NCBI GenBank assembly: GCA_016195665.1
Contig: JACPZD010000035.1
Coordinates: 1-64,000 of the forward strand
Length of the DNA stretch: 64,000 nt
Direction of reading: 5' to 3'
Source: Gammaproteobacteria bacterium
GTDB lineage: Bacteria > Pseudomonadota > Gammaproteobacteria > SURF-13
Shown: piece after piece, positions 2 through 1,844 of the stretch
Numbering within the stretch: the first letter of the stretch is position 1
How the letters are laid out: each line of letters begins with the position of its first letter
Position numbers and translations under genes: made by a program
The notes under the pieces: generated by a model
Told to the model about the DNA's origin: nothing
Database searches by the model: none
Seen by the model: only the letters and a program-made list of their open reading frames with translations

Positions 2-124
2 TTGCGCAAGGCCGCCAAACGTACAGTCAGCGATTTGTGGGATGAAATCGGAAAACTCCTTGATGCGTTCTCGCTAGACGAATGCAAAAACTATTTTGCG
101 TCTTCTGGATATGTATGTGCTTAA
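2..124 (+). mobile_element. IS630-family transposase, C-terminal end (5' part outside window)
   Basis: An open frame runs in from the left edge and ends in TAA at 122-124, giving 40 residues. The stretches RKAAKRTVSDLW and ECKNYFASSGY are typical of the extreme C-terminus of IS630-type (DDE, Tc1/mariner-like) transposases. Only the tail is visible, so it cannot be said whether the element is whole. It converges on the acyl-CoA synthetase gene, whose stop codon lies at 126-128, so the element's right end must be in the next few bases. A CTAG at 137-140 fits the known target preference of IS630. Confidence 0.8.
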
Positions 125-125
125 A

Positions 126-1844
126 TCAAAAATGCTCTAGATACATTGCCCGTATCCGGGCATAGCCGGGAAAGCCACGCGTTAATTCGTGTATTTTAGT
201 GAGTACCGCATTGAGTGCTTGCGGGCTTCTCAGCGCCAAGGGATCGTCAGGATTTAGCGCAAGCGTCTTTGCGAGATTTTTCCACCCCTCCCGGTTCAAC
301 ACAACCAATGCAGCGAGGAAGGGCTTGGCCTCCCCCACCACCATCACTTGATAGAACAAGGGGTCTTGAGTAATGCCAAGCTCTATGTCAGCAGGGGCGA
401 CCTTTTCTCCGGTAGACATCACCAGGATATCCTTGAGGCGGCCACGTATAAAGATATGGTCGTCTACGATCTGCACCTGATCTCCGGTATGCAGCCAGCC
501 TCCGCCGTCTATGACCTGCCGGGTATCCTCGGGCCTATTCCAATAGCCCAGCATCACCGAGGGCGCCCGCACCAACAATTCATCCTCTTTGCCGATGTTC
601 ACCTCGATACCCGGCAAGGGCTCGCCGACCGAGTCCGGGATATTGTTGTCCAGCCGGTTGACGCTCACGACCGGCGCGGCCTCGGTCAGCCCATAGCCTT
701 GAATCAACGGCAGCCCTAATCCGATGAAACAATGAGAGATCTTTGCCGGCAACGGCGCGCCGCCGCTCACGGCCAGCCGTAAACGCCCGCCCAGGCGCGC
801 CAGGATCCTATCCGCCACCAGACGTTTTAATATCGCCCACAGAAAACGCTGGAGAAAATTAACATCTTTTTTGCCTATGCCCTGCGCCGCCTCAAAGCGC
901 CGCCAACCCAGGGTCTCCGTCCACTTGAACAACGCGCGGGCCAGTACGCCTTTCTCCTTCAGCCGGCGTTGCACCTCGGCATAGAACCGTTCAAATATTC
1001 TCGGCACCGAAATCAACACGGTGGGACGCTGGGCGACAAGATCCTCCGGCAGGTCTTTCGCAGATCTCGCAAAGGCCACGCGGCTCCCCACCATCATAGG
1101 AACATAATAACCCGCCGTCCGTTCAAAAGTATGCGACAGCGGCAAAAAGGAAAGATAGCGATCCTTGCGGTCGCCGGGTATCGCCTTGAGCACGGCTCTG
1201 GCGTTCCACAGAATATTGTGATGAGACAACATCACACCTTTAGGACGGCCCGTAGTTCCCGAAGTATAGACAATAGTGGCCAATGAATCGCGACTGACCG
1301 CGTAATCAACCAGCGTCTGCGTATCTTTATCGAGCCAATCTTTAACGAACTGAACCGCAGTGCTGTTATCGGTAATAGGAATCGAATCCGGATTCACGCA
1401 CAGCACCTTCTGTAAGCTGCGCAGGCGGTTATGTTGCGCCGCGAGCGGCAACCACTGCTCTATGCGCCCCACCAGCAACAGCCGCGCACCGGAATCTTCC
1501 AGGATATAGGTAATGCTCTCGGAACTATCGGAAGTATACAAAGGCACGACCACGAGTTGCAGGGAAAGGGCAGCCAGATCAAAACATACCCACTCCACGC
1601 TGTTGTTCAGCAGGATGGCGACCCGCTCACCCGGGGCGAGACTCTCCTTGGCCAACGCATGCTGCCAGCGCGCAACCAGACGTTCCATCTCTTGCCATGT
1701 GTAGCGTTTCCACTTTCTTCTAGCATAGTCATATTGCAGGTAGGCCTGTGCCTTCGGCGTCTTCGCCACGCGGCGTTGGAAAAGGCCTGACAGTGTGCCT
1801 ATCTGATCGGCATGGATGCCATATTTATACAGTTTAGCCGGCAT
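126..1844 (-). CDS. Long-chain acyl-CoA synthetase (AMP-forming), C-terminus apparently cut off by IS insertion
   Basis: This is an ANL-superfamily adenylate-forming enzyme that activates fatty acids with ATP and CoA. The phosphate-binding motif YTSGTTGRPKGVML lies at about residues 193-206, the GYGLTEAAP motif in the middle, and GWLHTGDQ and GRLKDILVMSTGEKV near the end, as in bacterial FadD/FAA1-like enzymes. The protein is 572 residues and stops just after GYARIRAMYLEHF. Family members usually run about 30-40 residues further and carry the catalytic lysine of the mobile C-terminal lid there. The loss coincides with the IS630 end, so the product is probably inactive or impaired in the adenylation half-reaction. 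Its start is one base beyond the stop of the upstream gene at 1846, so the two are co-transcribed. Confidence 0.85.
   Translation of the reverse strand: MPAKLYKYGIHADQIGTLSGLFQRRVAKTPKAQAYLQYDYARRKWKRYTWQEMERLVARWQHALAKESLAPGERVAILLNNSVEWVCFDLAALSLQLVVVPLYTSDSSESITYILEDSGARLLLVGRIEQWLPLAAQHNRLRSLQKVLCVNPDSIPITDNSTAVQFVKDWLDKDTQTLVDYAVSRDSLATIVYTSGTTGRPKGVMLSHHNILWNARAVLKAIPGDRKDRYLSFLPLSHTFERTAGYYVPMMVGSRVAFARSAKDLPEDLVAQRPTVLISVPRIFERFYAEVQRRLKEKGVLARALFKWTETLGWRRFEAAQGIGKKDVNFLQRFLWAILKRLVADRILARLGGRLRLAVSGGAPLPAKISHCFIGLGLPLIQGYGLTEAAPVVSVNRLDNNIPDSVGEPLPGIEVNIGKEDELLVRAPSVMLGYWNRPEDTRQVIDGGGWLHTGDQVQIVDDHIFIRGRLKDILVMSTGEKVAPADIELGITQDPLFYQVMVVGEAKPFLAALVVLNREGWKNLAKTLALNPDDPLALRSPQALNAVLTKIHELTRGFPGYARIRAMYLEHF
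137..140. other. Probable IS630 insertion junction (CTAG target)
   Basis: IS630 is known to insert at the TA of CTAG. A CTAG lies 13 bases past the transposase stop, exactly where the acyl-CoA synthetase reading frame stops resembling its family. The last residues of that protein (EHF) would then be encoded by the element's end. The second junction lies outside the window, so the TA duplication cannot be confirmed. Confidence 0.5.

Follow-up and report, generated by a model that had tools for sequence, protein, structure and literature searches.

The start of this contig raises a simple question: why does the gene of a FadD-like acyl-CoA ligase end next to a transposase gene, before its C-terminal domain is complete? 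The window that we analyzed comprises 64,000 nucleotides (positions 1-64000 of contig C35, JACPZD010000035.1) and begins at the start of its contig, in a genome assembly of 2.38 Mb in 41 contigs. An earlier note on this DNA had proposed that an IS630 insertion truncated an acyl-CoA synthetase, and had remarked that the stops of the two genes converge. They do: the TAA of the transposase (122-124, + strand) and the stop of the ligase (126-128, - strand) are separated by one base. We reach the same reading, because seven contigs share the first 140 bases of the window and the missing tail of the ligase adjoins the element's other end. Taking the linkage of contigs C6 and C35 from the assembled contig ends, we estimate at about 0.96 the probability that an IS630-type element inserted into a TA and split a ligase gene of 621 codons, removing the A10 lysine from its product. 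The features of the locus are given in Table 1.

Table 1. Features at the start of the window (positions of contig C35)
Feature	Position	Strand	Basis or details
Right end of multicopy IS630-type IS; runs off the contig leftward	1..137	+	140 bases identical at 7 contig starts
Transposase, C-terminal 40 codons and stop (TAA, 122-124)	2..124	+	LRKAAKRTVSDLWDEIGKLLDAFSLDECKNYFASSGYVCA, then stop
18-bp terminal inverted repeat, outermost base C137	120..137	+	Identical to left end
TA target duplication, right copy	138..139	.	TA at 13/13 junctions; ligase frame is whole once the second copy is removed
End of the ligase ORF within the element: codons E-H-F, foreign to the gene, and TGA stop	126..137	-	Sequence and frame; same bases at other junctions
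First 569 of the 621 residues of the FadD-like acyl-CoA ligase (N-terminal domain; C-terminal domain in part)	138..1844	-	PF00501 (22-435), PF23562
ACP domain, fatty acyl-AMP ligase and acyltransferase fusion, 949 aa	1846..4695	-	PF00550, PF00501, PF01553

A repeated element at the contig ends

The contig opens inside a multicopy IS630-type element. The first 140-141 bases of the window recur exactly at the starts of C2, C12, C15, C23, C34, and C38, after which all seven sequences diverge, and the shared stretch terminates in an 18-bp repeat, CTTAAATCAAAAATGCTC, followed by TA. A search for the opposite, left end, which the earlier note had advised, found it on six contig ends (the starts of C5, C16, and C22 and the ends of C6, C13, and C30). 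Compared from the outermost base inward, the two ends are identical at 18 of 18 bases before identity breaks, forming a perfect inverted repeat, and the TA is present at every junction (7 right and 6 left, 13/13). The left end codes for MYAYSRDLRDRVL..., a 37-aa N-terminal fragment matching HTH_Tnp_IS630 at 22.7 bits (cut-off, 21.3). The 40-aa C-terminal fragment of the transposase gave no Pfam family match when scanned alone; by eye, it resembles the end of an IS630 transposase from Nitrospira (L058).

The ends of the element sit at contig ends, as is expected where an assembler fails to cross a repeat. The body of the element is absent from the assembly, and a seventh left end was not found among the 41 contigs (7 right versus 6 left ends). 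The sole PF13358 match in the genome (C1:278970-279401) was considered as a candidate for the body and rejected, since the ends of the element do not match that locus (L054); it belongs to a different element. Judged by the sequence of its ends, the element is of the IS630 type, with its own DDE part lacking from the assembly. A passage in PMC2170065 describes elements of the IS630 family (Tc1/mariner/IS630 superfamily, including ISY100 and the IS630 of Shigella sonnei) as inserting into TA and duplicating it. The window element is like them in its TA duplication, its terminal inverted repeats, and its N terminus with an IS630-type HTH, and differs in being known from its ends alone.

The flanks of other copies include further genes. 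At the start of C2 (L032), a protein with a CHAD domain is encoded in the flank of a different right end. The flank at the start of C15 (L034) matches ParE_toxin from profile position 30 onward, and the one at the end of C30 (L041) carries a short piece running into the element that looks by eye like a ParE N terminus and has no Pfam match. A ParE-like gene of a toxin-antitoxin pair, with putative pieces in the C15 and C30 flanks, is hence probably interrupted by another copy of the element.

The missing tail of the ligase

Which part of the ligase has been lost? The ORF in the window (126-1844, - strand) encodes 572 aa and ends in ...MYL-EHF. Its last native codon is 138-140 (residue 569); positions 129-137, which belong to the element, encode the E, H, and F that follow, such that the last three residues indeed come from the element's end, as had been suspected. 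The AMP-binding domain (PF00501) is matched over its full profile at 260.7 bits.

The missing 3' part lies at C6:15159-15314, directly beyond the left end of the element, where the earlier note had suggested searching for it. The C6 flank past this end starts with TAACGTTGGATACGTGGACAATC... and translates as TLDTWTIENGLITPTMKLKR..., and when the C6 and C35 flanks are joined on a single TA, they give one open frame that encodes a ligase of 621 residues. In the truncated form, the match to AMP-binding_C_3 (PF23562) stops at position 55 of the 124-position profile; in the rejoined protein, it extends to position 123, and its score rises from 35.9 to 49.2 bits. The window protein lacks a complete C-terminal domain and the A10 lysine, whereas the rejoined one has both (K586), its A10-type motif reading GLITPTMKLKR. 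In its domains (PF00501 and PF23562) and its A10-type motif, the rejoined protein is like the FadD-like long-chain acyl-CoA ligases of the ANL superfamily; the window protein differs from them in being cut after residue 569.

We searched for relatives of the ligase in 56 genomes (own included), of which 53 had a match, and compared 16 homologues, namely 15 loci from other genomes (L013-L027) and the paralogue of the same genome (L010); four partial or weakly similar loci (L028-L031) and further matches without a locus were left out of the alignment. All 16 continue for 36-41 residues past the break point and carry the lysine that is absent from the window protein. The rejoined ligase aligns with them gap-free at the joint, with K586 facing a lysine in 16/16. 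Of the 13 flanks tested, that of C6 is the only one matched by the 16 homologue tails when these are used alone. A search of the whole genome with the 52-aa tail gave a single perfect match (100%, C6:15159-15314), the sole other match being the C1 paralogue (41%). A Pfam scan of the isolated 52-aa tail gave no AMP-binding match; we identify the tail by the join that restores the frame, the homologue alignment, and the unique match in the genome. The expectation that the ligase lacks a C-terminal part with the catalytic lysine was therefore correct, but its size was underestimated at 30-40 residues: the insertion removes 52 of the protein's own residues, where homologues have 36-41, and about 38 are shared with them.

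Could the ligase be naturally short, with an IS lying downstream by chance? The earlier note had named IS-free homologues ending at this point as evidence against an insertion, and 0/16 end at the break. This explanation is refuted by the rejoined frame, the 16 longer homologues, and the ligase's own tail beyond the element on C6, and we give it practically no probability. A different concern is the assembly itself. Every copy of the IS is broken at contig ends, its body is absent, and the junction is known from the assembly only, so that the ligase might be intact in the cells and its 5' part misjoined to an IS end by the assembler. Yet both halves of the gene stop at the exact terminus of the element with a TA, as at 13/13 junctions, and a random misjoin would not produce this in each half with the frame preserved. 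We regard such an artefact as extremely improbable.

Beyond the ligase on C6 lies a convergent gene for an AmmeMemoRadiSam radical SAM enzyme (660 bits), whose frame is untouched by the insertion. At this locus (L043), the radical SAM frame (94-1281, + strand) shares 125 bases (1157-1281) with the ligase tail that converges on it, and its family match stops at residue 356 of 395.

Target site and consequences of the insertion

Where did the element insert? The earlier note had placed the target at the CTAG of 137-140. This motif is present, but C137 is the outermost base of the element, found at every end. The rejoined pre-insertion site reads ...CGTTAGATA..., and the original target was therefore TTAG. 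Still, the element prefers CTAG, although the insertion in the ligase used TTAG: 11/13 junctions read TA-G, whereas 18% of the TA dinucleotides in the same flanks are followed by G (binomial P = 3e-7). The two junctions with an A after the TA are those of C6 and C5. A preference for CTAG is reportedly a trait of IS630 itself, a further likeness to the window element, from which the TTAG used by the window copy departs. We count this use of TTAG instead of the preferred CTAG as a point against an insertion by this element, which nevertheless remains our preferred reading.

Transposition in the IS630 family proceeds by cut-and-paste. We propose that an IS630-type element transposed into the TA of TTAG at codons 569-570 of the 621-codon ligase gene and duplicated the TA. 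The ligase now ends in ...MYL-EHF and a stop supplied by the element, without its last 52 residues, K586 among them. A passage in PMC8388817, from which we take the motif name A10, presents the A10 lysine, conserved among acyl-CoA and fatty-acyl-CoA ligases, as the key residue of adenylation, a step in which it contacts the alpha-phosphate. Since the loss includes this lysine, the ligase has likely been inactivated; the truncated protein, if stable, would be unable to carry out the adenylation step, and the gene would be a recent pseudogene. A full-length paralogue kept in the genome (53% identity; a 626-codon frame, matched at C1:299126-300787) may cover the lost function.

The gene is otherwise undecayed. 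Because both of its halves are open and the seven right ends do not differ over the assembled stretch, the insertion looks recent. Such apparently recent movement could also fit a mixed population, in which only some cells carry the insertion and sister cells keep the intact gene. However, the intact junction is nowhere assembled, the tail occurs only at C6, and the 5' part occurs only at C35, which makes a mixture unlikely.

The fusion gene lies directly upstream of the ligase, one base from its start, and the two probably form one operon. The best NCBIfam matches of the fusion protein, both below the cut-off, are the long-chain-fatty-acid--CoA ligase PRK07768 and the fatty acyl-AMP ligase PRK09192. 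One could imagine that cells still produce the truncated ligase and use it in another role, e.g., binding acyl-AMP or performing only the CoA-transfer half-reaction on acyl-AMP provided by the fused fatty acyl-AMP ligase next to it, but we find this very doubtful. With inactivation by insertion as the preferred reading, the 572-aa ligase is due to be annotated as an IS-disrupted pseudogene. Contigs C6 and C35 would be neighbors across one copy of the element, which helps to close the genome. In other respects, the loss of a gene to an IS, as seen here, is commonplace.

Relatives of the element in other genomes

A search with the left end in 274 genomes of the class (own genome included) gave a match in the own genome only. 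The exact 21-base terminus, used to scan named genomes, was found in 19 stretches, in Nitrospira, Alphaproteobacteria, Alcaligenaceae, Terriglobia, and others. We compared the ends of the element with all 19 and examined further two full-length relatives (L058 and L069). The Nitrospira copy L058 (281-1307, 1,027 bp) has ends 68-72% identical to those of the window element. Its second frame matches DDE_3 at 114 bits and transpos_IS630 / IS630 family transposase at 141 bits (cut-off, 100); the likeness to the IS630 family in the DDE_3 transposase is thus seen in this related full copy. The transposase of L058 is read in two overlapping frames, of 153 and 233 aa, a difference from the IS630 family. 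Two overlapping frames are found in both elements from Nitrospira MAGs (L058:281-1307 and L069:207-1315), an arrangement that suggests programmed frameshifting.
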